Shown here one piece after another: positions 13,869 through 45,925 of a stretch of 64,000 nucleotides of DNA. Both the position numbers and the translations under genes were made by a program. Position 1 is the first letter of the stretch; every line of letters starts with the position of its first letter. The stretch comes from Branchiostoma floridae (taxonomy: Eukaryota > Chordata > Leptocardii > Amphioxiformes > Branchiostomatidae). The notes beneath the pieces were generated by a model. The model had not been told where the DNA came from and made no database searches. It saw only the letters and a list, made by a program, of their open reading frames with translations. The stretch covers positions 20,576,536 through 20,640,535 of the forward strand of contig NC_049992.1 of NCBI RefSeq assembly GCF_000003815.2, written 5' to 3'.

Positions 13869-13959
13869 ATGGAGACTGCCCGGGAAGCCCGGGTGAGCCG
13901 TGAACGCTGCTGGCTGTGGTTTACGTTTGTTCTGGTTTACTCTACACCTGCTATAACAG
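13869..13959 (+). CDS. Candidate signal-peptide first exon of the receptor tyrosine kinase
   Basis: ATG at 13869 opens METAREARVSRERCWLWFTF and continues with a hydrophobic stretch (WLWFTFVLVYS) and a plausible signal-peptidase region (TPAITG). The exon ends with a strong donor, aacag|gtaagtg, at phase 1. That is exactly the phase needed by all downstream ectodomain exons on the same strand. Assignment to the receptor is inference: the next visible exon is 7.5 kb away, so this could belong to another secreted protein. Confidence 0.55.
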
Positions 13960-14305
13960 GTAAGTGTGGATTGGATATTTCTTAGTGAAACGTTGCCAAA
14001 ACATGTGGGCTTTATCAAGGATTGTATAATATCTCCGCCTATTCAAATGCCGTTGCATTGTCCTTGTTACAGCTGTGTGTGCAGATGCGAAGGCATCCCA
14101 TCATTTGCTGAATTGCCCTAATTTTGTTATTCAATGTTCACGCCCCCTCGGCAGACTTGATAGTTAAATTATTCCTGTCTTAGATTAACTAAAACTTTAT
14201 CTGACGTTGCTTTTGTTTTATTCCTGTCATATGTAAACAACACCTACTTAAAACCCAACGTTTCCACAATCATATCTGTATCTCTATAGCCGGTATTACC
14301 AGGAT

Positions 14306-14348
14306 AGGTGAGGTGAGGTGAGGTGAGGTGGGGTGAGGTGAGGTGGGG
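14306..14348. repeat. GAGGTG-type short tandem repeat
   Basis: About eight tandem (a/g)ggtg units. Simple repeat in the first intron of the receptor gene. Confidence 0.9.
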
Positions 14349-14639
14349 GTATTACCGCCCTTCGGTGTAACACACCAGCTATTTACACCAGCGTGACCTA
14401 TGTCAGCTGTTTTTTTTTCTTAATGCGCCGTAATTGAATTGTTCTACACTGTTCCTGTACACCAGTTCTTCCCGTTTTTATATTTTCCATTATTTGTCAT
14501 GTATCATGTTCTGTCCATTGGTGTCGTTAATATTACGCTAAGGGCACAACCCGCAGTTTCCTGTCCGTACGGTTTTGGGGAGGCCACGTCGTGGGGGAAG
14601 ATATCTTTTGCTGCCTGTAAAACCTAGCTCAAACAACAA

Positions 14640-14780
14640 ACCTCATATATCGACAAATGTAATGTTGTTATTGTATATTGTACAGTTACCAGGGCTAGCC
14701 CTTGATAATAGCCTCCGGATAGTTGGGTAGCCCAGGCTGTATTTCTCACTATACAGCCGAATAAATCAAATCAAATCAAA
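14640..14780 (+). repeat. LINE-like 3' tail (…aataaatcaaatcaaatcaaa)
   Basis: 'ttaccagggctagcccttgataatagcctccgg' ends in tandem 'aatcaaatcaaat'. The same tail occurs at 45395-45490 just before the last kinase exon. Short tandem A-rich 3' ends are typical of CR1/L2-clade LINEs and their SINE partners. No ORF is attached. Confidence 0.6.
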
Positions 14781-14891
14781 GGGCAGGGAATGGGCACGTC
14801 TCAACGCACGTCACTCGCACGGTGTAAGGTGTAAGTGAGTGGCTGCGTGCATCGTTCGTTCTGCAAGTGGTGAGTGAGTTGTAAATGCTTA

Positions 14892-16434
14892 AGGTGGGTT
14901 TACACCTGCGTATATTTTCATGCCGCATGAGTTCCGTTTTGACATTTTTCGACATTTTGACTGATTTCTTCAATACGCGGCCGCACGCACAAGTCGCACC
15001 TCAAACGCATCTGAATGGTTTTTAGAAAGTTTCACGAACGCAGGCAAACGAAAGTATACGCCCAGTACACCCGATAGTTTTGGACATGCACAAAACTATC
15101 GTTCGTACGCAGTTTGGTGGCCAAAACGTTATGGATGCGCAATACAGTGGTCCCACGTCGGTCGATTGCGCTTTGAAGACGCTACATGTTTGCGCTTTAT
15201 ACGCAGTAACACGCGGATATCGCGGTATTGCGAGTACATAGCGTTCTTACAGCGCAGACACAACGCACCATGAGCGACCGTATAACGAATGCACACATAG
15301 ATCACGATTTGGTACCGTGCGTTCTGCGATCGCTTTGCGCATACTACGCGTACTGATAGCGTGATCGACGCACACTCCAGATTTGGAATAAATACGAAGG
15401 TGCATCTGAGTCCAGACAAAAAAATCATCTCAAGATGTCAGATCCAGGCCAGGACTGACTAATTTGTACCAGGGGCATGGAGAGATGGTCACAACTTGCA
15501 GGACACCATGAATGCAGGACACTGGTCCCAACAGAGCCTCCAGGGACGGGAAGATGTAGAGGAACCTGCCCAAGCACTGGGTCAACTTGTGTGACACACA
15601 TGCCATTTTGTGTAACAGATATTTGACGTAATTTGCTGGTAATGGCACTTTTTTTGTGTGTAAAACCACATGATATAAAGGTGCAATATAGAGCCATATT
15701 ACAACTTTGAAAGAGGGCGTAAGGTTTCATAATTGTTTAATTTACGTGTTTGATAAAGATCTTGAATACGTTTTGTGGTGTGTATGAGTGTGATTTTTTT
15801 AGTAGTTGAAATACTAAGATGATAGGGAAAATCATTAAGGACAAAGTGAAAACAAACACAATCTTAACAGTGCACATAATTTCTTAAGGTAAATGATGGC
15901 CCACATTACTGTAAAAGCACAGTGTCACTGCTTCACTGCTTCGCAAATGAATAAAAAAACCTCTTCACTGTTTACTTGTCAATGTTCTACTTGCACTGCC
16001 TGTAAACAAAAGCATACGTAGTACAAAGTGTTTCTCGAACAAAAATACTCTATTGGCAATGCTCGCAAACAAAAGTATATGTAACAGAAACTGTTCCTCT
16101 GACACACCTGAAATGCGTTTGTAATGCAGTTAGCACCAGGTGCGTCAGGCATGCGGTCGGTAGACGTTGTGTGCGTCCGGATTACGCCCAACATACGTAC
16201 CCCATACGAATCTATTCGCAGTACTGAAAATTCTGTTGCGCATTTCAGTTGCAATCATACGCATCTCATGCGAAATGAAAACGCTGAAGTCGTAATTCAA
16301 ACGCCAGATGGGCTCGACGTTCAAATTAATTTATTCCAAAAAAATTCCAAATGTTGGGCGTTCGGCCGCGTATTGACAAAATTTCATTCGGAACTCACGC
16401 GCACTTGAAAATATACGCAGGTGTAAACCCACAT
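14892..16434. mobile_element. Non-autonomous DNA transposon, ~28-bp TIRs, TTA TSD
   Basis: Left end aggtgggtttacacctgcgt (from 14892, through tatattttca) is mirrored by tgaaaatatacgcaggtgta...cccacat ending at 16434. TTA flanks both sides (14889-14891, 16435-16437). The right ~600 bp (15830-16434) recurs at about 30125-30716. No transposase is seen; a TWA TSD suggests PIF/Harbinger. Confidence 0.8.
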
Positions 16435-16494
16435 TTACAACGTACGATCTCTATGCGATTGAAACGTTACCGTATGCACGGCGCACTTGTCTCT

Positions 16495-16498
16495 CTCT

Positions 16499-16551
<53 letters not shown>

Positions 16552-16575
16552 TGTGTGTGTGTGTGTATATGTGTC
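16495..16575. repeat. (TG)n microsatellite
   Basis: tctctc followed by about 35 TG units. Reading frames across it are artefacts. Confidence 0.97.
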
Positions 16576-17290: not shown

Positions 17291-17299
17291 TACATAAAT

Positions 17300-21496: not shown

Positions 21497-21793
21497 GCTG
21501 TCCAACGGTTGTCCTATACGGCTCCACCACCGTTCAGGTGGCCAGTATGACGTCCTACACCATGACGGGAGACATCCGCGAGGGCCGCCCCGTGTACTAC
21601 AGCAACGCCACCTGCGACTTCCTGTATTACAAGTGTGGCAGCTTTCTGGGGTGGTGTGTGGGGCCGGATTTTGGGCGCCGGGGTATCCAAGTCAAGGACT
21701 ACCACCTCTACGCCGACAAGATCAACGGGGCCTTCTTTCTGTGGAGCAATGGACAGTGGAGAGAGAACTCGGATGTGAAGATCGCCTGCTCTG
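21497..21793 (+). CDS. Receptor ectodomain exon: unnamed GRPVY/VGPxxG domain, copy 1
   Basis: A 99-codon exon, acceptor 'tctctgtcag', donor 'tctg|gttagt', phase 1 at both ends. Order of features: GCPTVVLYG; then 'GRPVYYSNATCDFLYY' with one N-glycosylation sequon; 'GWCVGPDFGRRG'; 'FFLWSNGQWRENSDVKIACS'. It aligns with the next exon at GRPVY-S, FL, W-VGP-G, W, QWR and a terminal Cys. I do not recognise a named family. Being a phase 1-1 exon upstream of the lectin exons on the same strand supports membership of the receptor. Confidence 0.72.
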
Positions 21794-22318: not shown

Positions 22319-22672
22319 ATGACGTCCCGCCTGGTTCTTTAATTCCACAACCGGTAAGCTACATTGCAGACTGCACGAGGGTCCGTCTGCAAGGTGACGC
22401 CACCTACCAACGTTCCCGCATGACAACCTACACCAGGACAAGACAGACCAGCGGCGGCAGGCCTGTCTACGTTAGCGACAGGAACAGCAGAGAATTTCTC
22501 TTCTTCTTAGGTGACCGCAATCAGTGGTGGGTTGGGCCCACTGTCGGGCAAGCCCGTGGAGTCGCCCGTGTCCACGACTGTGCCATGACACCGGACCGGA
22601 CAAGGCCATTGTGGCTTCTGTACGACGGGAGCCAATGGCGGTTCGCCCCGTCGGTTCATGTAACATGCGTCG
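22319..22672 (+). CDS. Receptor ectodomain exon: unnamed GRPVY/VGPxxG domain, copy 2
   Basis: A 118-codon exon, acceptor 'ttgttttag', donor 'gtcg|gtatgt', phase 1-1. It carries DDVPPGSLIPQPVSYIADCT, 'GRPVYVSDRNSREFLFFLG', 'NQWWVGPTVGQARG' and 'SQWRFAPSVHVTCV'. It shares the GRPVY, W-VGP-G, QWR and final Cys with copy 1, so this is a tandem-duplicated domain with two conserved cysteines per unit. The function is unknown. Confidence 0.72.
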
Positions 22673-23149
22673 GTATGTACATTGTGTCGTATTAACATTT
22701 TGTTACCTCCAGGAAATGAGGACCACCTCCAGATGGGAGGTTTTGAAATTGTCGGAATTTCGGTTGTTCGAAGCTGTATCTTACGACTCAGTGGATCAGT
22801 ATGTACTTTTGCACATGGTTAGGTAGTACATATGTGGTAATGGAAGTTGTTGCTCTGTGACCCCGGAGGGTAACCTCCGGTCACAGAGCTTCAGTTTCCA
22901 GAGGATTTCATCGATATAATTAATTCAACATGGCTTTAGTAATAACAAAACAGAAGATGGCAAAATAAGGTTGGGATAGATGTAGTTCTCCCACGAGGGG
23001 CTCCTTCATGAGCGGCGGAGTAACCCATTTTATTATTGTGCAAGTTCTTATCAATACGTGTTTTTATTGTTGTTTTTTTCCGACACTAGCATTCTCTACC
23101 CAGGCACCCTACGGTTATCTGAGTCAGTGAGCTACTAGATAATTACCTT

Positions 23150-23960
23150 CGCCAAGAAGGTTATTTTTCGGTTAAGGCGTCATGTTGTGTCCCTATATGT
23201 AGGTCAACAGCATATTAGTAGAGTAGCTGTTGATGGATTTTTATGATATTTGGTATTTGAGTAGCGGTTGCGGAGACGAAGATCATGTTCGAAAATGGTT
23301 AGCGCACCACTTTCCGTCGGAACTGCAGCGGGCTGAGTGTGTGTGTGTCCGCTTTTTTGTGAAATGCATAACTCGAGACGTGGCAGATGGTTTTGTATGA
23401 TATTTGGTGGATAGGCAGGGTTTTGGAAAAGGAAGGTCAAGTTTGATAATGGGCCTCCTAACAGCGAGTTAAGGTATTGCAGTGGAGGTTCGAAGTTGGA
23501 GGTAACGTCTTCCTCATGTGGCAGATTAATGATTTTTGGGTAGGGCATACGTCTTTGGGCCCCCTTCTGGCCTTTTTTTAAACTGCAGGGGCCTATTTTG
23601 TTTTAGACTTTGACAGGGGGCGGATTGTCATGGTAGTCGAGTTATCATATAATCAAGTTACAATTATTTAATCTGTAGCTAATTACACAATTAATGCATA
23701 ATCTTGTCCGATTGTTTGCGGAAAGCATAAGTCGAGACTTTGCGGGTGGTTTTGTATGATATTTGGTGAATAGGTAGGGGTTGGGAAAAGGAAGGTTAAG
23801 TTCGATAATGGGCCTCATAGCGGCGAGTTACGTTATTGCAGCGGAGGTTAAAAGTTGAAAGAAATGTGTTCCTCACTTGCCAGGCTCATGATATTTGGAA
23901 AGTGGATAGGTGTTCGGGCAGGGAGTAAGTTGTGTACGTTTGGTCCCACCTAGCGGCTTG
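23150..23960 (-). repeat. Dispersed repeat family R3, reverse orientation
   Basis: Reverse complement of the words in 17300-18800: gtatttgagtagcggttgcg, gcataactcgagac, ggcctcctaacagcgagtt. It abuts the LINE fragment at 23960. Confidence 0.6.
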
Positions 23961-23962
23961 TT

Positions 23963-24248
23963 TTGATCTGCTACGGGTGTTTTTATGAGGACGCTGATGT
24001 CGTATCCATTCCAAAGGAGATGCCACCGCGACTAGAGAAGTTAAGACCCATATCTCTAACACCTACCTTTGCCAAAGTATGTGAAGGAATCGTCCTTGAC
24101 TGGTGCATGCAGGATATCCTTTCTAACCTGGACCCTCGACAGTTCGATTCTCTCCATGGTTTCTCAACATTACCTGACTCGTCTCGTACACAACATCCTT
24201 GAGGCATCAGACAGACCAGGCTACGTGACAACACTTCTTCTAACTGAC
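23963..24248 (+). pseudogene. LINE reverse-transcriptase fragment, 5' half (interrupted)
   Basis: Encodes LEKLRPISLTPTFAKVCEGI, VLDWCMQDILSNLDPRQF and, after one frame slip, SHYLTRLVHNILEASDRPGY and TTLLLTD. These are typical palm motifs of a non-LTR retrotransposon RT. The frame stops at the edge of the CACTA-like insertion and resumes at 26502. No flanking endonuclease or 3' UTR is seen; a decayed fragment. Confidence 0.85.
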
Positions 24249-26498
24249 CACTACACGAAAACTTGAATATCCGGTCGTTTTTGGGGTTGCATATGTCCCG
24301 TAAAACCTGGTGTATCCGGGGCATGTGCAGTCATATCCTGTTATGACAAGCGCGGGTCCTGCATATTACCGCTTATGCCTGCACATCCGGTAATTAGACA
24401 TGTATGGGGATATGCGGCCCCTGCTCACGTCTCGTGTCTTGAGTAATGCCAAACAAGAGACCATCTTGTGTGTGAATTGATAGACGTAATGATGCTTTGT
24501 CATAAGAATAGGTTTGAGTAAGATTGGTAAAGGACATCCGCTTTACATAAAAGTACTCTCCAAGCGGATGTTTATTGACTTGTCTGGCATTTTCAGTCAA
24601 CAAAACTCACAAACGCCTGATATAAACGAATGCATTGTTTTACAAGAACAAAGAAAGGCCTACGCACAAATGGCGCGTATCATCGTTTTCCAATGAATTG
24701 TTATCTAGAACGAACACTAAAAATAACTTTGAGGGCATCGTATACCAGCGTTTGGTATTATTATATTCTTAAGCTTCGGTTTTACGTTTTTAGCTAATCA
24801 ACTAATTTTACTTTTTTTAAAAACTTTTGACACAAAAGAAAACATGGCTTACCCACGCTCAATTTTAATATTCGTTTTTTTTTTTTTGCTGCGGCAGTTT
24901 GTTGCCTAGATTGAACTACACGAAATGGACATTCTAAGTAAAATCTAACACGTTTGATGATAACATTCTCCACCATTCTATGGTGGGGTAGTCATTTTAC
25001 GCCCTAAGCTTATCAATGAAACGGCCGCTTCAGTCTAAAGACCAATGTTGTGCTTTTGAAACAAAAGAAAACATGGCGTATATGATATACCCATTCATTC
25101 GTTTTTATCCTTGTGGATAATGCTTGTTGCAACAACAATATGTTTGTTACCAGACTGATGTATGAAATCATTAACAATTACAGTAACACATTTTCACCTA
25201 GTTCCTTGTGGGTATTGTTTGCATGACTGTGAACTGGCCAGGTGACAAAAGCTAAATTTAGCTACAGTGGACCTCCCGACCTATTGTGTCTGTCTGTATG
25301 CAAATACTCATCAGAACTAGCCAACTGTATTTCACACAGCATGTAGGTGTTTGAAAATAAGGACCAATCAACACACATGTCAACATTTTCAAATTTTACA
25401 GTTGGCATTTCAGAGCTAGACTTCTTTCTGTGAGGTTGCGCTTTTACGCAACGGATCCCGATAGCTGGATATCTGCATGCAGGGCAGACAACGTCAGTGA
25501 ACACTGAGGGATTTAGAATGATACGACCTCGAGACTAAACAACATCTTGCCGCGTGGAATTTGAACTGCCTATGCTGGAAGGATTGGATTCTGCTTGGAG
25601 TTTTAAACAACAGTTACTGTAATTTTATAGCTAGTATCCAGCCTTACGCGCGGGCAGGCGCTGTAGAGTACGGTGGGGTACGACTGACATGCCCGGTTGT
25701 GATTTTGCGGACGGTTTGAGACTACGTCACACGTCGCCATGTAGGACTGGCTTAAAAGTTGCTGCCGGAGGCCGTGGTTGGCTCGGGTGATTTCTGCTTC
25801 GGCCCCGTGGACAGTGGAGGCTGCCCACCCGTGTCGCGATGGATCAATGGTTACCACAAATCTTCACGTTCACGTTTAGAAATTTTGCCGCAGCTGTGCT
25901 CCTGACTAACAAAAGTCTGTGCAGAAGACGGGTGGACAACAGAATGTATGATAGCGGGAATGCAGAACTTCACAAGACGTAAAAGGAGCGTCATTCCTAG
26001 CACATATGGAGGAAATCGTCAGGACAGTCTACTGTCCAGAAATACTTTGAAAAAATAAAGAAAATTCATTCACCATTCAGAAAGAATAAAAGCAAAATAA
26101 ACACACTACAGGGAGGGGGGGATCCTAGGTAGGGCAGGGTAGTAAAACAAAGCTGCTTTCAATGACAAAGGGTGCTCTAGTCGAGGACTGGGTGAGATAA
26201 TTAGGTGATAATTAGGTGCAAACAAGGGTGCATGTCCCGAATAGGCAGGCATATGCAGGAAATTTGGGTCGGATGAGCGGACATGGGCGGGACATGCACC
26301 GGGATGGCCAGGCACATATGCAGGCATTATCGGCCTCCATATGTCCCGCACACTAATAGTTGTGAATCTCCGGGTCATATGCAGGTCCGTCTATACCAAG
26401 TGTGCGGACGGCATATACCCGTTATCGGCCACATATTTTGAATATCTGGGTTTATATGCAGGAGTATTCGACCCAGATATTCGCTTTTTCGTGTAGTG
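24249..26498. mobile_element. CACTA/EnSpm-type non-autonomous DNA transposon, 3-bp TSD
   Basis: Begins cactacacgaaaa (24249) and ends ttttcgtgtagtg (26498), perfect terminal inverted repeats starting 5'-CACTA. GAC is duplicated on both sides (24246-24248, 26499-26501). Similarity continues inward (gaatatccgg / gaatatctggg). Multiple 'catatgcagg'/'gcatatgtcccg' words fill both subterminal regions, as expected for EnSpm transposase sites. The 2,250 bp contain no transposase. CACTA ends plus a 3-bp TSD define the superfamily. Confidence 0.85.
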
Positions 26499-26501
26499 GA
26501 C

Positions 26502-26650
26502 TTTTCCCGAGCGTTTGATTATGTCCACCACCAGACCGCCATTTTCAAGTTATTTGACCTTGGTGTCCGCCCGCCCATCGTACCCTGGATAATCATGCCT
26601 TGTATAAAGGCATGATTATCTGGCGAATGGATGTGTTCGTGGAACTCTAG
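26502..26650 (+). pseudogene. LINE reverse-transcriptase fragment, 3' half
   Basis: Continues the frame of 24248 with FSRAFDYVHHQTAIFKLFDL and GVRPPIVPWII. The RT is then broken by a perfect 14-bp inverted repeat (gataatcatgcctt...aaggcatgattatc, ~26587-26621). Next comes 'gttacaggctgtggcaagcc', which is also found at 18999-19030. Confidence 0.8.
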
Positions 26651-27449
26651 TTGTTACAGGCTGTGGCAAGCCACGGTGGGCAATCGGACTTTCTATTTTG
26701 TGGTTTTTATGCTGCCGCCAAGAACGCATAAAACGCCCATTGTTGGGACGAAACGTAACCTCTGCTTGGAGGCTGGGTAAACGATGTCAATGTACAATTG
26801 ATATGAGAAATGTCATACACATAGAAACCAGTAACGTATATATATACGTATATATCATTAACAATCAGCCTAACTTAACGTGTTATGTAGACAAACACTC
26901 GTTCTCATTGAAATGTAAAAAACGGCAGGTTTTTGTTCGAAAATATAAATCGGCTTATTTTTGGTAAAACCGACCTGATTGTTTAGGAAAATTCCTCTTT
27001 TGACCATAGCCAAAAATTACAACTTATTTTTCCTACCCATTATTACAGGGCAGGTAACAAACGTTTTTCTTCGAAATGATTAACAGTCTTGGCTACATCA
27101 TTCCGATACCTGCCGAGCAATCATTTTAGGAACTGAATTGTTAACTTTTTGGCTACAATTTGAATTCTTTCTGTCTTCTCAGGCGACAGCCATTTTCAGG
27201 GGGTGAATTCCCATCCGTGGGTATAATAATTTTCCAAGCCATGAACCAATACGAATGTTGTGGTTTATCTTTTGTAAAACATTACAGGGGTTGCGGAAAA
27301 ACAAAGGGACCAGTAAGGCTGTTTAAAATTTGCCCCATATGAAGTCTAAAAGGCAAGCGACTGCATTTTTTTTTACATTTCAATTAGAACGAGCCTAAAG
27401 TGTTCACAAACTGGTACCGGTGGTACGAGAAATTCTATTTTAGTTTAGT

Positions 27450-28020
27450 GTATTACTTTTACATCCAAAGCCAAAGCGCAGATAATATACCGGATAAAAG
27501 AAAAATGTCCACATGCTTGAAGAGTAGCCCTGCGGACTTGTTTATTGTTAACAAGCTTAAGAAATCGAACTATAAATTTCTCATGAAGTTGACGTGAAAC
27601 ATGTATAGTATTCAAAGTGCGTAGAGGTGAAAGAATACGGGCTGTAGATGTGCGGGCTTGCTTATTGTTCACAAGAATAGCGAACTATATTTTTTCTTGA
27701 AGGTGAAATGAAACCTGTCTATGTATTCCAAGTGCGTAAAGGTGAAAAAATGTTGGCCGTTCAATTTCTCTTGAAGGTACCGTGAAACATGTATAAGGAC
27801 TGTGTTACCAGGGTGTCTCCATAGCGGACCATTAATTTCTCTTGAGTGTGACATGAACCAATTGTATGCATTCAAAGCGAACTATAAATTTCTCTTGAAG
27901 GTGTGGCTATGTATTCAAAGTGCGTGGAGCGGGCTCCATGAAGCTGGTAGGTTGGGCGCAGGATTGTACTCCATGGAGCTGGCTTCATAGAGCTGGCACC
28001 ATGGAGGTATTAGTACAACC
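27450..28020. repeat. Second copy of the ~107-bp array family (reverse-oriented units)
   Basis: gtgaaacatgtatagtattc, aaagtgcgtagaggtgaaag and gcgggcttg/ttattgttcacaag recur as in 19330-19740. It ends in 'accatggaggtattagtaca', matching the hinge sequence of the first array. Confidence 0.75.
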
Positions 28021-28162
28021 CCTATTGGTTTTCTCCTGAAAGAATGTGCGCTGAATCATTATTTGTAGCCAAACTATGCTTAAACATTCTAAACCAACAG
28101 TGCAGTGCAGTTTCAATCGAAAAATAATACGTTACATACAAGTGACAGTCGTTGAAGGGCCC

Positions 28163-28745
28163 TGTCAACACTACTGACCAGTACTGGGCACCGGCTCCTG
28201 GCAGCCATTGAGGTCGCCGCTGGTACCGGGCACAGGTTTCAGGACGCCAAGGCCGCCGCTGGTACTGGGCACAGGTTCGTGGACGACGTCATGGCCACTG
28301 TTCGTACTGGGCACAGGTTCCTAGACGCCAAGGCCGCCGCTGGTACTGGGCACAGGTTCCTAGACGCCAAGGCCGCCGCTGGTACTGGGCACAGGTTCGT
28401 GGACGACGTCATGGCCACTGTTCGTACTGGGCACAGGTTCCTAGACGCCAAGGCCGCCGCTGGTACTGGGCACAGGTTCCTAGACGCCAAGGCCAACGCT
28501 GGTACTGGGCACAGGTTCTTGGACACCAAGGCCGCCGCTGGTACTGGGCACAGGTTCCTAGACGCCAAGGCCGCCGCTGGTACTGGGCACAGGTTCTTGG
28601 ACACCAAGGCCGCCGCTGGTACTGGGCACAGGTTCTTGGACACCAAGGCCGCCGCTGGTACAGGGCACAGGTTCCTGGACAACGTCATGGCCACTGCTCG
28701 TACTGGGCACAGGTTCCTAGACGCCAAGGCCGCCGCTGTACAGGG
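28163..28745 (+). repeat. 39-bp minisatellite, open in frame on both strands
   Basis: About 14 tandem 39-bp units of type ggtactgggcacaggttcct + agacgccaaggccgccgct. They translate on the plus strand as 13-residue repeats (GTGHRFLDAKAAA) without stops from about 28158 to a taa at 28756. The minus strand is also open (LCPVPAAALASRN). A variant unit with GACGACGTCATGGCC recurs at regular spacing, indicating a higher-order unit. GC-rich against AT-rich surroundings. Coding status unproven; no splice context ties it to the receptor. Confidence 0.8.
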
Positions 28746-29769
28746 AAAGTTAGACTAATCCATTTGTTACCAAGTGAGTCACAATGAAATAACACAATAT
28801 CGTCATCAATTATGTTTAAAAAATCCTCATTAGCATACATGCAAGTAATTCTGTACATCTTTGCCTAAGCTACATGCATGCCTAAAATGGTGCCAATCTG
28901 TCATTCCTGTCTTTGGTTATCCTCATTGGAATGTATTGACAACTAGAGTTCGGGGACTTCATACCTCCATGAAATATTTATTGCTTTTTTGTGGATGGTA
29001 TGTATATTTATGGTCGGTTGTATTTGAGAGTAATGGTTTTAAATGTTATGGGAAAGAAGTGGTGTATTCATTTAATGACACAGAGAATGTCCATCTGATA
29101 AGTAATTACTAAAATGTGACACTTAATTGTGTAATTTGCGTTTAAGAGGCCGACGGCATATGGTAGCGTGGTGTTCCTGAAGCGTTATGTTTGGCATTTA
29201 AACTGTCTAAGGTTGTCAGCATTATGAGGTTATACTATGTGCCTCAGAGCGGTGTGGTGGGAGGAAGTTGGGAAAGCTAGAAAGAAGAAGGGATTTGGTA
29301 AACTTTAGTCCGAGATCTTTACGTCTTACCTGCAGAAGTCTGCAATTTATAGAAATTAATAGTTGATTAGCATTTATAATGACGATCTCCTACAACAGGA
29401 CCTTGATAAATGTAAAATATGTTATATATGGACGGTGGAACATGTACAGATATCATTCATGCAAATAAGGGCCTAATTCGCATAATTAATGCAAAGTGTG
29501 ATAATTACAATGCATCTTAGTTTTTCATACTGCCACATATCTATGATGTTAATATGGTTAAGGGCAGCTTTACTTATTGACCTGAAGGCACATACAGACA
29601 TAGAATTACAAAATGTAGGTACAGTGAAGTTTTAGTTTGAACTTACTGCTGGCGGGTTATTTTTCGAACCCCCAAAACTAATAGAGGTAGACTAAAAAGC
29701 GTTCAAGTGATAGTTTTTTGAAGAAAAATAGAAGATTTTGACGGAATTTGAGTAAAAATAATAGGAATT

Positions 29770-30130: not shown

Positions 30131-30716
30131 AAGGGCAAAGTGAAAACAAACACAATCTTGACAGTGCATATAAATTTTAATGCAAATGATGGCCCGTATT
30201 ACTGTAAGTAACTGCAATGTGATAAATAAATAAAAAAAACCTCTTCACTGTTTGCTCATCAATGTTCTACTTGCACTGCTCTTAAACAAAAGTATACGTA
30301 GTACAAATTATTCCTCTGACAAAAAATGTTCAAATGGCAATGCTCGCAAAATAAAAGTATAACCAAGAGAAACTGTTTATCTGACACATCTGAAATGCGC
30401 TCGGAATGCAATTAGCACCAGGTGCGTCAGGAGTGCGGTCGGCAGACGTTGTCTGCGTCCGGAATACGCTCAGCATACGTAACGCAAACGGCTATTCGAA
30501 GCAAGGGAAAATAGGTTGCGCAATTCAAATGCAAATTATGCGCACGCCATGCAAATGGGAACGTTGAAGTCATAATTCATACGCCAGATGGGCGTGACAT
30601 ATAATTCAGTTTATTCCAGAAAATTCTAAATTCTGGGCGTACGGCTGCGTATTGACAGAATTACATGCGGAAATCACGCGCACCTGAAAATATACGCAGG
30701 TGCGAAACCACCTTAA
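30125..30716 (+). mobile_element. Partial copy of the TTA-TSD transposon of 14892-16434
   Basis: Collinear with 15833-16434: caaagtgaaaacaaacacaa, tgatggccc, attagcaccaggtgcgtcag and a right end gcaggtgcgaaaccacct followed by taa. The left half and left TIR are missing. Confidence 0.75.
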
Positions 30717-31194
30717 ACAACGTGCATTAGTGCGCAGGTACCACCTAACCATGTACCATAGCACATGATCCACCGAAACAATCGTGAAATACAGCTGCCA
30801 ACACTCAGCCCTCGGACGGACAATTTTCAGACCTCCGTCAGGAGGTGACCCTCCTTTCCCGGAGGTCACACGTCGTTTCGGTTGGACGAAATGGGCCTTA
30901 TGAACGGTGTACACAGTACGCCCGGAAGTTTTGGACATTTCCCCAAAATATAAAGTGCGTACGTTATAACGTTACCATGTTTTTGGTCATTATTATTTGG
31001 TCACCATTTTGCAAATGGAACTATGTATTAATGCCAGAATTTAAAAAAAAAACGAAATTAGAATGATTTTGTAATACATCAACATAGTTGAGGATATATG
31101 TATATATGTACTATTTAATACACGGTACTTTCAATACTCTTGCCGTTTCGCATTTACCGTATTGTTCAGTTATCTTTCTCCTGACATTATTGCC

Positions 31195-31790
31195 ACCTTA
31201 GAAAATGGAGGTATACTTTTTGTGTGTCTGTGTTTATGTCTGTGTGTCTGTTTGTATTTCCGGATATTTGTGGTCAGCATAACTCAAGAAGGTCTTCATG
31301 GATTAAAATGATACATGAGTTGTGGGTAGGGGTTGGAAAGACGAAGGTCAGGGTTGATTTTGGGCCCCCTGGTATCTGACCGTGGTACTGCAGCAGAAAT
31401 TAATTTTTTTTGTATCTTTTGACCTTGACATGCTATGGTCTTAATTGATTTTTTATGGCATGTAGCTTGTTATGTAAGGAAAAATTTGGACTTAATTTGC
31501 ATACTTAATGAGGAGAATCTATATTTATAGTGTTTTACATTATAGGACTCAAATTCTTGTAACATATATAGTTTGTTGTAGGTGGAATATTAGCAGACAT
31601 CAATTATGCAAATAAGTCACTAATTTGCATAATATTGCATTGAAATAATGTGAAAGTGTCCTAATTCATCTAAGTACATGTAGTAAATGATTAGATGGTC
31701 AGCATTGTGACCTGTGTGAGTTGGTTAAAAGTGTACATAATCAATCATAAATTATGCAGATGTGAAAGTCATTTGAATCATCGGAATATT
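31195..31790 (-). repeat. Dispersed repeat family R3 (bounded by atggaggtat words)
   Basis: Starts near 'agaaaatggaggtata' and ends near 'ttcatggaggtatgat'. The interior (ccggatatttgtggtcagca, taactcaagaa) recurs at 50150-50240, and in reverse complement at 35340-36100. Confidence 0.6.
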
Positions 31791-31829
31791 TCATGGAGGT
31801 ATGATGTCTCCAAACTCTTGTATTTGAAG

Positions 31830-32010
31830 CACCCTGTCCGCACGACAACCAAATCGTACTGTCCAGTGGTAAAAAGTACACCGTCCCTGGAGGCAGCTCA
31901 ACGTATGGGGTTGCACAGGAAAGATGCAGACGACAAGGCGGCATCGTTGCGATTCCAAGGGACGAAGAGGAACAACAGAACCTGGTGTTCCTAAAGAACT
32001 GCGTCAGCAG
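31830..32010 (+). CDS. Receptor ectodomain: C-type lectin domain 1, first exon
   Basis: Begins phase 1 with (A)PCPHDNQIVLSSGKKYTV, then 'YGVAQERCRRQGGIVAIPRD' and EEEQQNLVFLKNCVS. The C-R-x-x-G-G-x-x-A-x-P core is the standard first half of a C-type lectin-like domain. Donor 'agcag|gtaagg' leaves two bases, completed by the exon at 32344. The largest open frame over this DNA is a different, spurious frame. Confidence 0.85.
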
Positions 32011-32343: not shown

Positions 32344-32561
32344 GGACGCTCAGTTTTGGCTTGGTATGAGGAAGACAGAGGGTGTATGGAGAGACGACAG
32401 GGGCACTGCACTGGGCAGTTTTACGAAATGGGCGTCCGAGGAGCCACACGGATCCAACTGTGCGCACATCGTCTTCGGGAATAAAGTGGGGGAACGACGA
32501 GACAAGTGGGCAGACTCAAACTGCCTCGCACAATACCGCTACGTCTGCGAAATACAGGATG
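32344..32561 (+). CDS. Receptor ectodomain: C-type lectin domain 1, second exon
   Basis: Acceptor 'taacaatatag' gives (R)DAQFWLGMRKTEGVW, then FTKWASEEPHGSNCAHIVF and DKWADSNCLAQYRYVCEIQD. WLG, W-x-x-x-EP and the CxxxYxYVCE end are canonical. The Ca2+/sugar motif reads EPH rather than EPN or QPD and the WND position is WAD, so sugar binding may be altered. Together the two exons make 133 codons with phase 1 at both outer edges. Confidence 0.88.
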
Positions 32562-36506: not shown

Positions 36507-36890
36507 GTTGTCCAATATCAGACTACGTTCCCTTTAACGGAGTTTGCTACAAGAGCTTTGTGGAAAAGAAAACGCGTGACGAGGCTAAGCAGACGTGTGC
36601 GGCAGACGGAGGGATTTTAGCCATGCCGAAGGACAGTGCCACCAATACTTTTCTCGCTAATCTAGAAGAAGTAGTATGGGGTCGCTGGTTAGGGCTGATT
36701 GACATAAACAGCGATCAACGGTGGGCATTTGAGGACGGCCATGTCCTGACGTCAGCTGACTACTCCAACTGGCTCCCCGGTCAACCAGATAACGGCCAGG
36801 GCGGCTGTGTCGGATTTTGGCTGAATGGATCTTCATGGGATGAAAAAGACTGCAACAAGCTCAAGGGATTCATATGTCAGATAAATAAAA
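36507..36890 (+). CDS. Receptor ectodomain: C-type lectin domain 2 (QPD type)
   Basis: Single 128-codon exon, phase 1-1, acceptor 'tttgtcaacag', donor 'aaaa|gtatgt'. GCPISDYVPFNGVCYKSF opens a long-form CTLD. 'CAADGGILAMPKD', 'WLGLIDINSDQRWAFEDG' and 'YSNWLPGQPDN' follow, closing with DCNKLKGFICQ. The QPD tripeptide is the galactose-type Ca2+ motif in classical C-type lectins. The usual WND is WDE, so one Ca2+ ligand position differs. One sequon (NGS). Confidence 0.95.
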
Positions 36891-37418: not shown

Positions 37419-37592
37419 GACCTAAGAAGTGGCGCAATGACTGGCGTTGCGGGCAGGGCTACCCTGCCGCAGACGGTAACCCTGCTGAATGCAACCCGGC
37501 AGGTAATAGCCCATGCTGCTCCCCGCACAAATGGTGCGGCAAGACTGCGGCCCACTGTGACTGTCGGGACTGTGTCGACTACAGAAACAAAG
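37419..37592 (+). CDS. Receptor ectodomain: 8-cysteine hevein-like (chitin-binding type-1-like) module
   Basis: A 58-codon phase 1-1 exon, acceptor 'cctagtag', donor 'aaag|gtacat'. PKKWRNDWRCGQGYPAADG is followed by 'PAECNP', 'SPCCSPHKWCG' and 'HCDCRDCVDY'. Eight cysteines in a C..C..CC..C..C..C..C order, with the CCS-x-x-WCG core, match the hevein fold, a chitooligosaccharide-binding module. Chitin binding is family-level inference. An alternative is an unrelated disulphide module with convergent spacing. Confidence 0.85.
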
Positions 37593-37689
37593 GTACATTA
37601 CTGGAACATACAAAATAGTATAGCATCATTTCCATGTCAAAATATCGTGGATAAAAACGCACTTTAAAATAGCGAAAATGTATCTATGA

Positions 37690-38739: not shown

Positions 38740-39147
38740 GATCCGGATGCCCTATTGGCTACTCGTACCTCGCACATACCCGCCTGTGTTACCGTGCCTA
38801 CGTTAGATACAATACCTACGATGAGGCTTTAGCGATCTGCCAAGCCGACGGCGGCACGCTGGCCATGCCACGCGACAACATGACCAACAACTTTCTCGTC
38901 GAGTTGAAGAACGCCGCAAACGAAAAAATATTGTTTTATTTTGGACTTGACCGTAGGGATGGCTTGTGGAGGTACGTAGATGGCGGAGAGCTGAATTACA
39001 CCGACTGGGGTGATGGAGAGCCGAATAATTGGCTTGGAATTGAGGAATGCGCAGAGTACTTCGCTGCAACCTGGAGACTTCCACGCAAGAGAAATAAGTG
39101 GAACGACGGGGATTGTTTATCAAGGAAGGGTTTCATATGTGAAGCTG
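38740..39147 (+). CDS. Receptor ectodomain: C-type lectin domain 3 (EPN/WND type)
   Basis: Single 136-codon phase 1-1 exon, acceptor 'ttttcactgcag', donor 'gctg|gtaggt'. SGCPIGYSYLAHTRLCYRAY, 'ICQADGGTLAMPRDN', 'YTDWGDGEPNNW', 'CAEYF', then 'NKWNDGDC' and GFICEA. EPN plus WND is the complete classical Ca2+ and mannose-type sugar-binding set, so this is the domain most likely to bind carbohydrate. Sequons at NMT and NYT. Confidence 0.96.
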
Positions 39148-39442: not shown

Positions 39443-39616
39443 CTATCTGCTGTGACAGCCCCGAATTCATGAACAGCCGGATCACCGCTACCGACGGCTA
39501 CTGTCATGGCGACACCATTCAGTTCTCTTGTAACCCTGGGTACGAGCTCGTCGGCAACTCCTCGGCCACCTGTAGAGAGGACAGAAGTTGGGACCGAGAG
39601 ATTCCGACTTGCCGAC
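39443..39616 (+). CDS. Receptor ectodomain: sushi (CCP) domain
   Basis: A 58-codon phase 1-1 exon, acceptor 'ttacatttgcag', donor 'cgac|gtgagt'. ICCDSPEFMNSRITATDGYC, 'GDTIQFSCNPGYELVGNSSA', 'TCREDRSWDREIPTC'. The FSCNPGYxLxGxxxxxC...W...xPxC pattern is diagnostic. Two additional cysteines (the CC at the start and the C of GYC) could form an extra disulphide. Confidence 0.94.
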
Positions 39617-39659: not shown

Positions 39660-39835
39660 CTATGAAATTCGTACGACTATTATGTGATACACACGAATCA
39701 CTATGCGAAAACGCACGAATATTATGAAATTCGCACGAATCACTATGCGAAAACGCACGAATATTATGAAAATCGCACGAATCACTATGTGATACACACG
39801 AACCTTACGAGATTTGCACAAACCTTATGCGAAAT
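39660..39835. repeat. ~43-bp tandem repeat (CACGAATCACTATGCGAAAA)
   Basis: Four imperfect units of cacgaatcactatgcgaaaa + cgcacgaatattatgaaa, starting 45 bp after the sushi exon donor. Non-coding intron repeat. Confidence 0.85.
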
Positions 39836-39859
39836 TTAGGCAGTGGTCACGTCTGTCAC

Positions 39860-41050
39860 GGCGAAAAACTGTACCCTTTCCAAGGCAACCCTAGGTCTTT
39901 TGAAGTCCCAATCACAGAGGACGAAGTCAAGCAGGCCATAAAATCCTTGAGAAATGGGCGCTCACTAGGGCCTAATGGAATCAACGAGTTATTTAAATAT
40001 GGGAGTGATATTACATATCCATCTTTAATTACGCCATCGAACATCACTACCCAATAGATGTTATTAGAAAATGGACACTAATTGCCCTGCCAAAATTTAA
40101 AAAAAAAACTTCTGTTCCCCCTGCAAACCTGCGACCTATTGCTCTTTTGAATAGTATCTGGAATATCATGTCCACTGTTACGCTTTACCGCATCGGTACG
40201 GAGATCTTCTGCAAGACCCAATCCACCTGTCTCTGCACTAGGCATGCTCCTAGAAATGGAGTATACAGATGATGTGGACGTCCTAGATGAGGAAGTAGAT
40301 CAGCTAGTAAGTCTTGAAACGGTTGCTGCAAAAAATCTAAAAGACTTAAACCTGTTTGTTAATGAAGGTAAAACAGAGTTCACACATGTCTACCTGGCAG
40401 ACAAACCACTACGGGGAGAAGAGGAATGGAGGAAAAGTAAAATACTGGGCTCCCTCCTCTGCAGCTCTGCCGATATATAAGCACGCTGCATCATGGGAAA
40501 CATTGCTTTTATATCTGGGTCCGAATAACAAGAATCCCTTTGGCAACGAAGCTACAGCTGTACAACGCGTGTTGTGTGTCCATCATGCTATATAACTGCA
40601 ACAGCTGGGCAGCACCAATGGCAGTCACAGAGAATTTGGACGTCTGCCAACATCTGCGTGCACTCACAGGTCTCCAATGGCCAAAAATCATGGTTACCAA
40701 CGACACTCCAAACAGAACTTGCAACCCCTCACCCATGTCCGCAAAAGTGAACGATTAGTTTTTGCACAATGTCATTTACCAACACAGATGAACTTTCATG
40801 CTAAAGCACAAAAAGCCATTGAATTCTCAATACTATGTTCCAACAGATACAAGGCACGCAAGTGAAGGTATAGTGTCAACCTGCTCAGCTTGCTAAAAGC
40901 AGACCTAAAGCACAAAGTTCGAGCCCTTCCAACAGCAGCAAAGAAAGTCCAATAGCTAAGGAAGGCTGCAGCATGCAAAGCACAGTGGAAAAAAGAGTAA
41001 GAAAGACTGAATGAAGCTTTCTGACTTTCCAAAGACTATAGATGCAGAAT
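39860..41050 (+). pseudogene. Decayed LINE reverse transcriptase with internal deletion
   Basis: Successive frames hold EDEVKQAIKSLRNGRSLGPN (RT N-terminal), 'ALPKFKKKTSVPPANLRPIA' after a frame slip, 'LEMEYTDDVDVLDEE' (the catalytic YxDD box, here YTDD), 'KNLKDLNLFVNEGKTEFTHV' and 'VCQHLRALTGLQWPKI'. Several frameshifts and a missing stretch before YTDD make it dead. It sits in the intron between the sushi and EGF exons. Confidence 0.82.
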
Positions 41051-41143: not shown

Positions 41144-41284
41144 CCTGTACGCCCGGAGAGTTCGGACCCGACTGTACCGGCACCTGTCACTGTGCGAGTG
41201 GAGGTTCCGTGTGTGACGTCATGACTGGAGTCTGCTCTAGTGGAAGTTGTGAATCTGGGTGGAAGGGAAGCAACTGCCAGACAG
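41144..41284 (+). CDS. Receptor ectodomain: 8-cysteine EGF-like module 1
   Basis: A 47-codon phase 1-1 exon, acceptor 'cccgtttcag'. CTPGEFGPDCTGTCHCASGG, 'VCDVMTGVCSSGSCESGW', 'KGSNCQT'. Eight cysteines and the CD-x-x-TG-x-C element resemble laminin-type EGF repeats found in Tie- and MEGF-like receptors. Sequence is about 80% identical to the following module, so a recent exon duplication. Confidence 0.92.
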
Positions 41285-41400
41285 GTAATTCAGATATATG
41301 GTGTATGTTTCCACTATGACAACTGGCCATTAGTGTTTCATCCTGAACGTTTTCTGATATAGATACTTCAATGATATGCTTTTTATTGTTTCTTCTGTAG

Positions 41401-41541
41401 TGTGCTCGCCCGTAGAGTTTGGACCCGACTGCAACGGCACCTGTCACTGTGCGAGTGTAGCTTCCGTGTGTGACGTCCGGACTGGAGTATGCTCTAGTGG
41501 AGGGTGTGAGGCTGGGTGGAAGGGAAATAATTGTCAGACAG
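41401..41541 (+). CDS. Receptor ectodomain: 8-cysteine EGF-like module 2
   Basis: Same length and phases as module 1, only 116 bp downstream. CSPVEFGPDCNGTCHCASVA, 'VCDVRTGVCSSGGCEAGW', 'KGNNCQT'. It gains a sequon (NGT). Confidence 0.92.
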
Positions 41542-42517: not shown

Positions 42518-42724
42518 AATCAGCTACCGATCTGCAGACACTACCACTTGCTCCCCCTGTGCCACCTCGGCCCTCGTTCCTTACGTACGAGGTGAACCGG
42601 GCTGATATACAGCTGAATGAACAAATCGGCAGAGGCGCCTTCGGTACCGCCTTCCTTGCATCTTTCAGGAGAGTTGTTGATGGTCTTCCTACTGAACAAA
42701 CAGTAGTGGTCAAAACTGACCATG
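42518..42724 (+). CDS. Receptor kinase exon 1: juxtamembrane + glycine loop + VVVK
   Basis: Acceptor 'tttcattccaag' (phase 1; the nearby 'ctgcag' would break phase). Proline-rich LPLAPPVPPRPSF, a possible SH3 ligand, is followed by 'QIGRGAFGTAFLASF' (G-x-G-x-x-G-x-A, where most kinases have Val) and 'TVVVKTDH' with the ATP-anchoring Lys. Donor 'catg|gtaggt'. Confidence 0.94.
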
Positions 42725-43120: not shown

Positions 43121-43302
43121 AAGACGCTGGGGAAGGGGAGATAAAAGCTTTCATAGCAGAGGTGGATACCACTATCAACTTGAGGCAGCATATTAACCTC
43201 CTTGGTCTAGTGGGCTGTTGTACCCTATCACACCCTCCATACCTAGTGACAGAGTACATGCCCTACGGAGACCTCAAGGGCTTCCTACTGAAGTGCAGAA
43301 AG
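43121..43302 (+). CDS. Receptor kinase exon 2: alpha-C helix and hinge
   Basis: Acceptor 'tatatttgcag', phase 1 in and phase 0 out. 'IKAFIAEVDTTINLRQHINL' supplies the alpha-C Glu and 'LLGLVGCC' the strand-4 motif. 'YLVTEYMPYGDLKGFL' forms the hinge with Thr at the gatekeeper position. Typical of the FGFR/RET/Tie-like RTK branch. Confidence 0.95.
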
Positions 43303-43571: not shown

Positions 43572-43655
43572 TTGGAAGAGAGGCTCCGAGATAGCATGTA
43601 TGACTTCAACGAGATGAAAATCTACCAGGTAGCACGACAGATAGCTAATGGAATG
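43572..43655 (+). CDS. Receptor kinase exon 3: alpha-D/E region
   Basis: A 28-codon phase 0-0 exon between 'taccacacag' and 'atg|gtaagc'. LEERLRDSMYDFNEMKIYQV then ARQIANGM, the helix that precedes the catalytic loop. No large kinase insert. Confidence 0.93.
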
Positions 43656-43888: not shown

Positions 43889-44106
43889 ATCTACATTTCC
43901 GAATCCGGATACGTGCATGGTGATCTGGCTGCTCGGAACATCCTGGTGGGTGAGAGACTGGTGGTGAAGATTGCAGATTTCGGCCTGACAACAGATATCT
44001 ACGAGCGAGGCTACCAGCGGCAGGATGCGGAGCAGAAGATTCCCCTGAGGTGGATAGCGCCGGAAAGGTTGCTAAGGGAGGGACGCTACACAAGTAAGAG
44101 TGACGT
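43889..44106 (+). CDS. Receptor kinase exon 4: catalytic and activation loops
   Basis: Acceptor 'cttcccccag', donor 'gacgt|gtgagt'. 'YVHGDLAARNILV' holds the catalytic Asp and Asn, with the HRD Arg replaced by Gly. 'VKIADFGLTTDIYERGYQRQ' gives DFG and two candidate activation-loop tyrosines. 'IPLRWIAPERLL' is the APE region. Catalytic residues K, E, D, N and DFG-D are all present. Confidence 0.96.
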
Positions 44107-44490
44107 GTGAGTACAATTGTTGCTATTTACATTTTTACATTTTTAAAAAGAAGTTATCAAGACCTAGATACCTACTGGAAAAAGCAGTTACCCATCAAGT
44201 AGCTGAATATCATTTTGGATCATATCCATGTGCAGTTGCTTGTGTAAATTCTTTCTTATTAACTGGATGTCTAACCTTCATCGACGTATCTAAGTTCCTA
44301 GTGTATACATAACATATGATATAAATCAAGAAACAAAGCTGTAACACTTTGTGTGGAAGTTTAATGTTACTGTGCAATAATCATGGGGCTTACAACTTTC
44401 TTGTACTTAACTATCAATTGCGAAATATGCTACTTTGTAACAAAAACAATGATCGTTTTTCTTGATATATTGCTTAACAACATCAGATAT

Positions 44491-44491
44491 G

Positions 44492-44582
<91 letters not shown>
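44491..44582. repeat. (AT)n microsatellite in kinase intron
   Basis: About 45 TA units, self-complementary. The reading frames through it are artefacts. Confidence 0.98.
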
Positions 44583-44585
<3 letters not shown>

Positions 44586-44765
44586 GCGCTAAGATCTATA
44601 CCTTGTATGTAGATGCTGTGGTTTTGGCAAACATAACGATATAGCTTACGATTTCGAAGTGGGCATACATATGTCAGGGTGGAGTTTGCAATTTCTGATG
44701 CCAACGTTGTCGCTGTCTAATGTTCACGATGCCTTGTATAATCAAATTACAAACTTCACGCCCAG

Positions 44766-44900
44766 TTGGTCCTTTGGAGTGGTGTTGTACGAGATCGCTA
44801 CGCTGGGGAACGTTCCGTACCCAGGCCTAGGCCGCACCCTCCTGGAGGAACTCCGCACAGGGTACCGGGAACCACGCCCTCCCGGCCTCCAACAAGACTT
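44766..44900 (+). CDS. Receptor kinase exon 5: C-lobe DVWSFG
   Basis: Acceptor 'cttcacgcccag'. The split Val codon of SDV is completed here and followed by WSFGVVLYEIATLGNVPYPG and 'ELRTGYREPRPPGLQQDL'. Donor 'gactt|gtacgt'. The open frame running on past 44900 is intron. Confidence 0.95.
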
Positions 44901-45394
44901 GTACGTGGAAGAGATTTTTTTTCAATTTCATTCACATTTCTTTTACATAGTGTAAATACGATCGCTTGAGGAGAGCCTGTCATTTTAGAATAGTGCAATA
45001 AACAGAAAAGAAAAAAAGTGATAATAATGATGTTAAAAGAAACTTTGGTGATGAATAGTGACATAAACTTGTACGCAGAAAGTGTGAGTGGGATAAGGGA
45101 AATAAACTTAATGTGAATTTCTAACGAGAGAGATAATGACCCGAATGACGATGAATGGCACTTTTTTCCATGCTATCTTTTGGTGATAACGTACCCTGGG
45201 CTGGTTTTAGATACTTCAATAAGCTGGCTCACAGTTTGAATTACGTATGCGCATTATGATACATTGTGGCTTATATGTCAAAGTTAAAAGTCCCTGAGAC
45301 ATAAGACATGTCAGCCATGGTATCAAATAACATCTGGACAAGTCCTGTCGGTAAACGAATTGTGACCTTTTGCATTGTTTATTGTATATTGTGA

Positions 45395-45490
45395 AATTAC
45401 CAGGGCTGACCATTAGTAATAGCCTCCGGCTTGTTGTGTGTCCTAGTTGTATTTCTTTTCATACAGCCAAATAAATCAAATCAATCACAA
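45395..45490 (+). repeat. LINE-like 3' tail copy
   Basis: ttaccagggctgaccattag...agcctccgg and a terminal aataaatcaaatcaatca match 14690-14780. It ends 35 bp before the last kinase exon acceptor. Confidence 0.6.
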
Positions 45491-45525
45491 AGACAAACGG
45501 ACTTCTTTATGTCACCAACCAACAG

Positions 45526-45652
45526 GTATGACATGATGCTGCGGTGCTGGCAGTGGGACGAAGATGATCGCCCGGAGTTTACGGAACTTTACGAGGAGCT
45601 AGACGCTGTTGTAGATTCATTGGCAATTGATTATGCCAAGGCAAAACCCTGA
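45526..45652 (+). CDS. Receptor kinase exon 6, ending at TGA 45650-45652
   Basis: Acceptor 'caaccaacag'. YDMMLRCWQWDEDDRPEF completes the kinase fold (CW...RP-x-F), followed by a helix TELYEELDAVVDSLAIDYAK and AKP, then tga. The stop directly ends the annotated frame, but see the next entry: the frame continues open after this stop. Confidence 0.94.
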
Positions 45653-45925
45653 TGCAGCTACCAGGATCCAGCAGCAGCAGCTCCTGAAAGCTCTTACGAC
45701 ATCCCAAAGTTAGCCTCAATGAGGCTGCAACTCAATGTTACTGCAGACGTAGACAAGATCAAATTGGGAGTGGTAATTAGTGATAAACATGAGTACAGTT
45801 TTACATAGTTTCCTGAGTCAACATATGTGTAGAATAGTGATACCACAACTGTATATGAGGACGGCTCTGTTGATCACAATGATGCTGAAGATGAAAAGCC
45901 TCTTACAACAGAGGAACTTGTGTAA
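45653..45925 (+). CDS. Putative receptor cytoplasmic tail downstream of an in-frame TGA
   Basis: In the same frame, 40 sense codons follow the TGA (CSYQDPAAAAPESSYDIPKL...KLGV, to 45772). A donor gtaatt (45773) and acceptor tgtgtag (45831-45832) then delimit a 60-bp phase-0 intron containing two TAGs. Its removal joins 30 more codons (NSDTTTVYEDGSVDHNDAED... to LTTEELV) and a taa at 45923. YQDP, YDIP and VYED look like SH2-docking sites of an RTK tail. Whether the tail is made (readthrough, sequence error, polymorphism) or is now 3' UTR is open. A CpG transition in CGA would create this TGA. Confidence 0.55.

Follow-up and report, generated by a model that had tools for sequence, protein, structure and literature searches.

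Does a single lancelet gene join a lectin-bearing, glycan-reading ectodomain to a tyrosine kinase, or do the exons that suggest such a protein belong to neighbouring genes? The question is raised by a stretch of 64,000 nucleotides of the Branchiostoma floridae genome (assembly GCF_000003815.2, NC_049992.1, positions 20,576,536 to 20,640,535 of the forward strand; hereafter the window, in whose own coordinates all positions are given). At 13869-45925 of the window, a first-pass annotation made from the letters alone had placed a receptor tyrosine kinase (RTK) with a patchwork ectodomain. Here we present an exon model of this locus and weigh what it may encode. On balance we lean, with modest confidence, towards one gene for a single-pass RTK that was built by phase-1 exon shuffling and would sense glycans by clustering.

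On the plus strand, between 13869 and 45652, 18 exons join into a single frame of 1,232 codons plus a stop. The exon boundaries were chosen by eye from splice sites and reading frames. All introns are of the GT-AG type (17/17), phases agree at every junction, and the interval 13869-45925 holds no run of N. The modules follow one another as a signal-like exon, two unnamed modules (U1 and U2), a C-type lectin domain split over two exons (CTLD1), a second such domain (CTLD2), a hevein-like module, a third C-type lectin domain (CTLD3), a sushi module, two EGF-like modules, a transmembrane and juxtamembrane exon and six exons that bear the kinase. The same order was given at first pass, and the 5' coordinates agree as well. 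The phase-1 outer junctions that had been claimed are found at all 11 inter-module junctions; the intron within CTLD1 is of phase 2, and the five introns inside the kinase are of phases 1, 0, 0, 2 and 2. Shuffled exons in lancelets are reported to be biased to phase 1-1 (PMC4284660). The 18 exons (E1 to E18) are as follows.

13869-13959, plus strand: E1, start codon and signal-peptide-like exon (METAREARVSRERCWLWFTFVLVYSTPAIT) with a phase-1 donor GTAAGT; from the spliced frame and the signal-exon scan
21497-21793, plus strand: E2, phase 1-1, the unnamed module U1; Pfam gave no family at E <= 0.1
22319-22672, plus strand: E3, unnamed module U2, a homologue of U1, phase 1-1; no Pfam match and no credible PDB match
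31830-32010, plus strand: E4, first half of CTLD1, phase 1-2; from the spliced frame and Pfam
32344-32561, plus strand: E5, second half of CTLD1 (EPH, WAD; sugar site incomplete), phase 2-1; from Pfam and motif reading
36507-36890, plus strand: E6, CTLD2, mannose-receptor/LY75-like (QPD, WDE; incomplete), phase 1-1; from Pfam and a PDB search
37419-37592, plus strand: E7, hevein-like chitin-binding module with eight cysteines, phase 1-1; top PDB match BbtPGRP3
38740-39147, plus strand: E8, CTLD3 with a full EPN and WND site, phase 1-1; from Pfam and alignment with surfactant protein D
39443-39616, plus strand: E9, sushi/CCP module, phase 1-1; Pfam, 1.2e-12 for the exon alone
41144-41284, plus strand: E10, EGF-like module 1 (eight cysteines), phase 1-1; from Pfam
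41401-41541, plus strand: E11, EGF-like module 2 (eight cysteines), phase 1-1; from Pfam, identical to EGF-like module 1 at 37 of 47 residues
41941-42123, plus strand: E12, transmembrane helix (residues ~866-886) and juxtamembrane stretch, phase 1-1; from hydropathy
42518-42724, plus strand: E13, juxtamembrane PxxPxR (928-933), glycine loop GRGAFG and VVVK lysine, phase 1-1; from the frame and motifs
43121-43302, plus strand: E14, kinase alpha-C glutamate region and hinge, phase 1-0; from the frame and Pfam
43572-43655, plus strand: E15, kinase D-E region, phase 0-0; from the frame and Pfam
43889-44106, plus strand: E16, catalytic loop HGDLAARN, DFG, activation-loop tyrosines 1111 and 1115, and APE, phase 0-2; from the frame, Pfam and motifs
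44766-44900, plus strand: E17, kinase C-lobe (WSFG...), phase 2-2; from the frame and Pfam
45526-45652, plus strand: E18, last part of the kinase (YDMMLRCW...RPEF) with the TGA stop; from the frame and Pfam

GC content is 0.54 in the exons and 0.40 in the introns. When each exon was left out in turn from the codon-usage training, the chosen frame was preferred in 17 of the 18, the exception being the short signal exon E1; this test gave a score of -3 to stops in the competing frames, which favours the open one. When splice and codon scores were combined in a plus-strand scan, model exons made up 14 of its 16 top non-overlapping internal segments, and the remaining two were an upstream gene's exon (10161-10363) and a minisatellite (28182-28657); because the scores were trained on the model's own exons, they speak against missed exons and not for the model. 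Three internal exons scored weakly, namely E13 (21.9), E12 (18.4, found as a sub-segment only) and the low-ranked E15 (14.1), no better than the top segments of the minus strand (23.0, 22.8 and 22.5). The chance of so many open exons is estimated at log10 P ~ -22 (16 internal exons, minus-strand rates), a figure uncorrected for exon choice that we do not use as proof. In the large introns, exon scans (run without a Pfam search of these introns) gave no strong segment besides the minisatellite, and a stricter scan of the four introns longer than 1.5 kb for cysteine-rich phase 1-1 exons gave none. A tblastn comparison of the model's modules with the window (E <= 1) recovered the exons of the model and gave six hits outside it (E 0.12-0.99), which we take to be chance. 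A bacterial promoter scan upstream of E1 is uninformative for an animal gene.

A domain search of the spliced protein, the check that the first-pass annotation had suggested, returned three Pfam Lectin_C stretches (1.4e-47), a Sushi match (4.7e-10 in the whole protein) and a full-length tyrosine kinase. Sugar-binding C-type lectin domains carry an EPN or QPD motif plus WND at calcium site 2. One of the three domains here, CTLD3, has the full motif; its alignment with surfactant protein D (4.4e-12) pairs EPN, the next E and WND, and two multi-lectin receptors outrank surfactant protein D for this domain by summed domains. We take these residues to be the calcium and sugar ligands, and CTLD3 is predicted to be a competent sugar-binding domain. 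The best PDB matches of CTLD2 are LY75 and mannose-receptor domains. Sugar binding by CTLD1 and CTLD2 is doubtful, and since the full EPN/WND site is found in CTLD3 only, to speak of three lectins that read glycans is an overstatement.

The hevein-like module of E7 can be aligned without gaps to the N-terminal domain of the lancelet peptidoglycan-recognition protein BbtPGRP3 (54 residues, 6e-15), with all eight cysteines paired, and scores 17.9 bits against Pfam Chitin_bind_1, below the cut-off of 27.8. The chitin-binding domain of BbtPGRP3 is described as having four disulfides and Ser51, Trp53, Trp55 and His62 as putative chitin-binding residues; it binds chitin, a Trp53/Trp55 double mutant lost that binding, and the domain is reported to boost about five-fold the amidase activity on Lys-type peptidoglycan (PMC4610682). 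At the four contact positions E7 has S, H, W and H, keeping three of them, and the module is probably a competent glycan binder. The carbohydrate sensing proposed at first pass thus holds up as a prediction for CTLD3 (EPN, E and WND) and for the hevein-like module; it is doubtful for CTLD1 and CTLD2 with their incomplete sites.

Below the lectins, E10 and E11 given alone reach 37.8 bits against EGF_STAB1-2, over the cut-off, and 17.9 bits within the whole protein, under it. The transmembrane helix is the top hydrophobic 21-mer of the protein (3.07), and nothing outside residues 850-900 exceeds 1.6. By home-made sequence criteria, a signal-like exon, an ectodomain and one hydrophobic helix ahead of the kinase are present; the spliced frame, the Pfam kinase and the single hydrophobic helix agree with the RTK layout of the first-pass annotation. 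The kinase matches PK_Tyr_Ser-Thr at 1.4e-75 over profile positions 1-258 of 258. It carries GRGAFG, VVVK (K981), the alpha-C glutamate E998, D1085, N1090, DFG (1103-1105) and APE (1130-1132), with tyrosines 1111 and 1115 in the activation loop. The usual reading in most tyrosine kinases is HRD, which is also that of both kinases shown in the PDB alignments; here the catalytic loop HGDLAARN has HGD (1083-1085), a change of Arg to Gly. This HGD may be akin to that of human STYK1. Judged by its motifs, the kinase looks intact, with the catalytic residues kept apart from the HRD arginine. Among the best 60 of 464 PDB matches, ABL1 (190.1 bits), RET (190) and FGFR3 (188.9) are nearly tied, so that these matches point to no single kinase family; the top match, an EGFR tandem construct, was counted twice. 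The phase-2 intron before YDMMLRCW lies at what we take to be the alpha-H position. It fits the phase-2 alpha-H intron reported for most human longDE kinases (PMC8662651).

At the opposite end, both signal-peptide scans were home-made and not SignalP. The first, with a hydropathy threshold, missed E1 and gave three weak candidates, one from 31236 and two overlapping ones from 37686. The second found nine signal-like first exons in 10400-46000, E1 among them, the other eight being five GT-repeat peptides (10477-10636), two candidates at 16453-16546 and one at 31508-31577. The donor of E1 scored 11.9 with E1 left out of the training, against 4.1-5.8 for these eight. Neither scan found a signal-like first exon on the minus strand. 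The modules that follow, U1 and U2, are identical at 34 of 99 positions and therefore form one family. They have no Pfam match at E <= 0.1 and no credible PDB match with a two-sequence profile (best E 1.2). A pattern search gave 18 hits in genomes of prokaryotes and 34 in viral contigs, none of which was confirmed as a relative. Their AlphaFold model is of low confidence (mean pLDDT 57.9), and Foldseek gave no match at E <= 0.001 (best 0.30).

The 3' end has two candidate forms. The first ends at a TGA at 45650-45652; in the second, a splice from 45610 to 45833 leads to a TAA at 45923-45925, the end chosen at first pass. In the alternative last exon the in-frame codon score beats those of the other two frames, yet is near zero. 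Beyond E18 the features are as follows.

45833-45925, plus strand: last exon of the second form (NSDTTTVYEDGSVDHNDAEDEKPLTTEELV, TAA), phase 0, used if the splice leaves E18 at 45610; codon score -0.02
46103-46108, plus strand: AATAAA downstream of both candidate stops; from motif reading

The kinase frame also stays open for 51 codons beyond the TGA (45653-45805), with a codon signal of -0.04 per codon that is above those of the other two frames. This open stretch contains SSYDIPK, presumably an SH2-ligand-like sequence.

The frame, the module order, the helix, the kinase, the CTLD3 site and the hevein-like module are read from the sequence; the binding, clustering, signalling and immune role that follow are inferred, as is the microbial or self-glycan recognition suggested at first pass. 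The product is most plausibly a glycan-sensing, perhaps microbe-sensing, RTK. In the mechanism that we propose, CTLD3 (mannose/N-acetylglucosamine (GlcNAc) type, calcium dependent) would bind glycan arrays at the surface of a microbe, particle or cell, and the hevein-like module would bind GlcNAc polymers such as chitin or peptidoglycan. Multivalent binding would cluster the receptor, the clustered kinases would trans-phosphorylate at tyrosines 1111 and 1115, and SH2/SH3-type adaptors, for which a PxxPxR motif lies at 928-933 between membrane and kinase, could pass the signal on; its outcome would plausibly be uptake or a defence response of the epithelium. CTLD1, CTLD2, the sushi and the EGF modules may serve as spacers or as binders of other ligands. 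Animal glycan sensors signal mostly via separate adaptors or co-receptors; the present protein, if it is what it appears to be, would be a single-molecule switch from glycan to phosphotyrosine in an invertebrate chordate. The proposal predicts that CTLD3 and the hevein-like module bind and that CTLD1 does not.

That the exons form a single gene is probable, and one gene is the best reading of them, not a proven one. We consider it unlikely that the model fuses two or three neighbours, for example a secreted protein made of the signal exon, U1 and U2, a lectin protein and a shorter EGF-bearing RTK. Such errors have precedents in lancelets, where a 'novel' Lectin_C/fn2 protein was refuted by expressed sequence tags (PMC4967905) and the receptor FrLRR is attributed to a transcript that reads through two genes (PMC10199209). 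At the present locus, introns 1 (7,537 nt) and 3 (9,157 nt) flank the U1 and U2 exons, and their length together with poly(A)-type signals would allow a gene boundary near U1/U2. Intron 3 holds six AATAAA and one ATTAAA (counted over 22600-31800), about the number that we estimate for AT-rich DNA of that length, and the weak start exon at 31508-31577 stands immediately before CTLD1. On the other side, phases match at every proposed boundary, and the large-intron scans gave no strong exon-like segment other than the minisatellite. A separate kinase gene would also need a start of its own, for which the interval from CTLD1 to the transmembrane exon offers the two overlapping weak candidates at 37686, seen in one of the two scans; since all signal-like candidates other than E1 are weak, such a gene must begin at a weak site or at one that the scans do not see.

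If the gene is single, its main ligand could instead be a protein, the receptor then acting in development or adhesion with its lectin-like modules used for protein contacts, even if CTLD3 may still bind sugar. We hold this to be possible though not the expected outcome: it accords with the lack of full sugar-site residues in CTLD1 and CTLD2, whereas EPN, E and WND are kept in CTLD3 and three of four chitin-contact residues in the hevein-like module. Quite improbable, in our judgement, is a copy that is decaying, specific to one allele or weak in catalysis, its catalytic loop reading HGD for HRD and its tail cut short by a premature TGA. The HGD at 1083-1085 and the 51 open codons past the TGA, which score above the other two frames, suit that account, as does the enrichment of Lectin_C and tyrosine-kinase activity among dispensable lancelet genes (PMC12373286); against it stand 1,232 open codons over 18 exons, GT-AG ends at all 17 introns, the presence of the remaining catalytic residues and a post-TGA codon signal close to zero. 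Several points weigh against the glycan-sensing RTK that we prefer, in addition to the possible boundary near U1/U2. The lectin ectodomain and the kinase are placed in one putative transcript by compatible exons; CTLD1 (EPH/WAD) and CTLD2 (QPD/WDE) lack complete sugar-site residues; E7 has His for Trp53, one of the two tryptophans mutated jointly in BbtPGRP3; the kinase has HGD for HRD; there are two candidate C-terminal tails; and no paper on a lancelet C-type-lectin RTK was found by title or abstract opening among the matches listed, which is weak evidence of absence. The likelihoods that we attach to the preferred reading and to its rivals are not fully exclusive of one another.

Non-RD kinases are associated with pattern-recognition receptors in plants and animals. 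A more specific form of the glycan-sensing RTK would be a chordate pattern-recognition receptor whose ectodomain binds microbial glycans (GlcNAc polymers and mannosides), which signals through its own 'non-RD' tyrosine kinase and whose layout arose independently of that of plant lectin receptor kinases; we put this forward tentatively and find it rather doubtful. A microbe-facing role is made plausible by the lancelet context, in which dispensable genes are reported to be enriched for Lectin_C and protein tyrosine kinase activity (PMC12373286) and FrLRR binds bacteria and promotes phagocytosis via Grb2 (PMC10199209). Like the present protein, FrLRR is a lancelet surface receptor for which an origin by exon shuffling has been proposed; it differs in having a folate-receptor domain, leucine-rich repeats and a predicted glycosylphosphatidylinositol anchor, and the available part of the report mentions no kinase domain of its own (PMC10199209). 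The rate at which new domain combinations arose in lancelets is disputed (PMC4284660 versus PMC4967905 and PMC6071037), and the locus offers a test case for whether exon shuffling there gives rise to functional receptors or, for the most part, to artefacts of annotation.

The receptor-like kinases of plants are Ser/Thr kinases. Those with a C-type lectin resemble the present protein in having the lectin outside and the kinase inside, whereas the latter has a tyrosine kinase and three lectin domains plus other modules. A 2017 survey counted the lectin-receptor-kinase layout in 71 of the 83 C-type lectin sequences from plants and in seven of about twelve thousand animal ones in Pfam 31, so that, going by this count, animal C-type-lectin receptor kinases are rare and not unprecedented (PMC5485988). 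BbtPGRP3 (PDB 4Z8I and 4ZXM) shares the hevein-like module, at its N terminus; it also carries an amidase domain and a signal peptide, with no kinase mentioned in the part of the paper available (PMC4610682), and E7 departs from it in the His at Trp53. Members of the mannose receptor family (LY75, MRC1 and MRC2) likewise carry several C-type lectin domains in series and are nearest to CTLD2 in the PDB, whereas the present protein has no FN2 by Pfam (E <= 0.1) and has a kinase, a sushi module and EGF modules. Tyrosine kinases are reportedly expanded in lancelets, and D'Aniello et al. (2008) are said to have described 'EXTK' RTKs related to TIE, FGFR and RET. These too are reportedly RTKs with a shuffled ectodomain, and the phase-2 intron near alpha-H may be a further likeness; what sets the present gene apart is HGD for HRD and an ectodomain built from C-type lectin domains, a hevein-like module and unnamed modules.

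The rest of the window holds other genes and repeats. Upstream, on the plus strand, a gene at 9295-10363, possibly starting from 5252, has a Glycos_transf_2 match (1.8e-07) at 9295-9435, and its likeness is presumably to beta-1,4-N-acetylgalactosaminyltransferases; the exon-like segments at 5252-5440 and 10161-10363 (plus strand) gave no Pfam match. At 6250-7665, inverted similar open reading frames (ORFs) lie on opposite strands with a GIY-YIG-like segment recognized by eye, probably mobile elements; the ORF at 6250-7101 (minus strand) has no Pfam match. Within the RTK gene, the minisatellite in intron 3 (28182-28657) is coding-like, with TGHRFLDAKAAAG repeats, an open frame and weak splice sites, and ORFs in the intron that separates E9 from E10 (39770-41011, plus strand) resemble, by eye, a reverse-transcriptase fragment. 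Downstream of the kinase, two exons of a 7tm_2 (secretin-family) seven-transmembrane receptor lie at 48470-49486 (minus strand). They are followed at ~50800-59100 by a long minisatellite-like stretch with two N gaps and Leu-Ser-Cys-rich repeat ORFs on the minus strand and some on the plus strand. An EGF-like segment (EGF 6.7e-05) with good splice-like ends stands by itself at 59998-60115 (plus strand), far from the kinase gene, and overlapping long ORFs at 60426-61809 (plus strand) match ALOG (4.5e-19) and a phage-integrase-type recombinase (1.2e-07), probably as parts of one mobile element.

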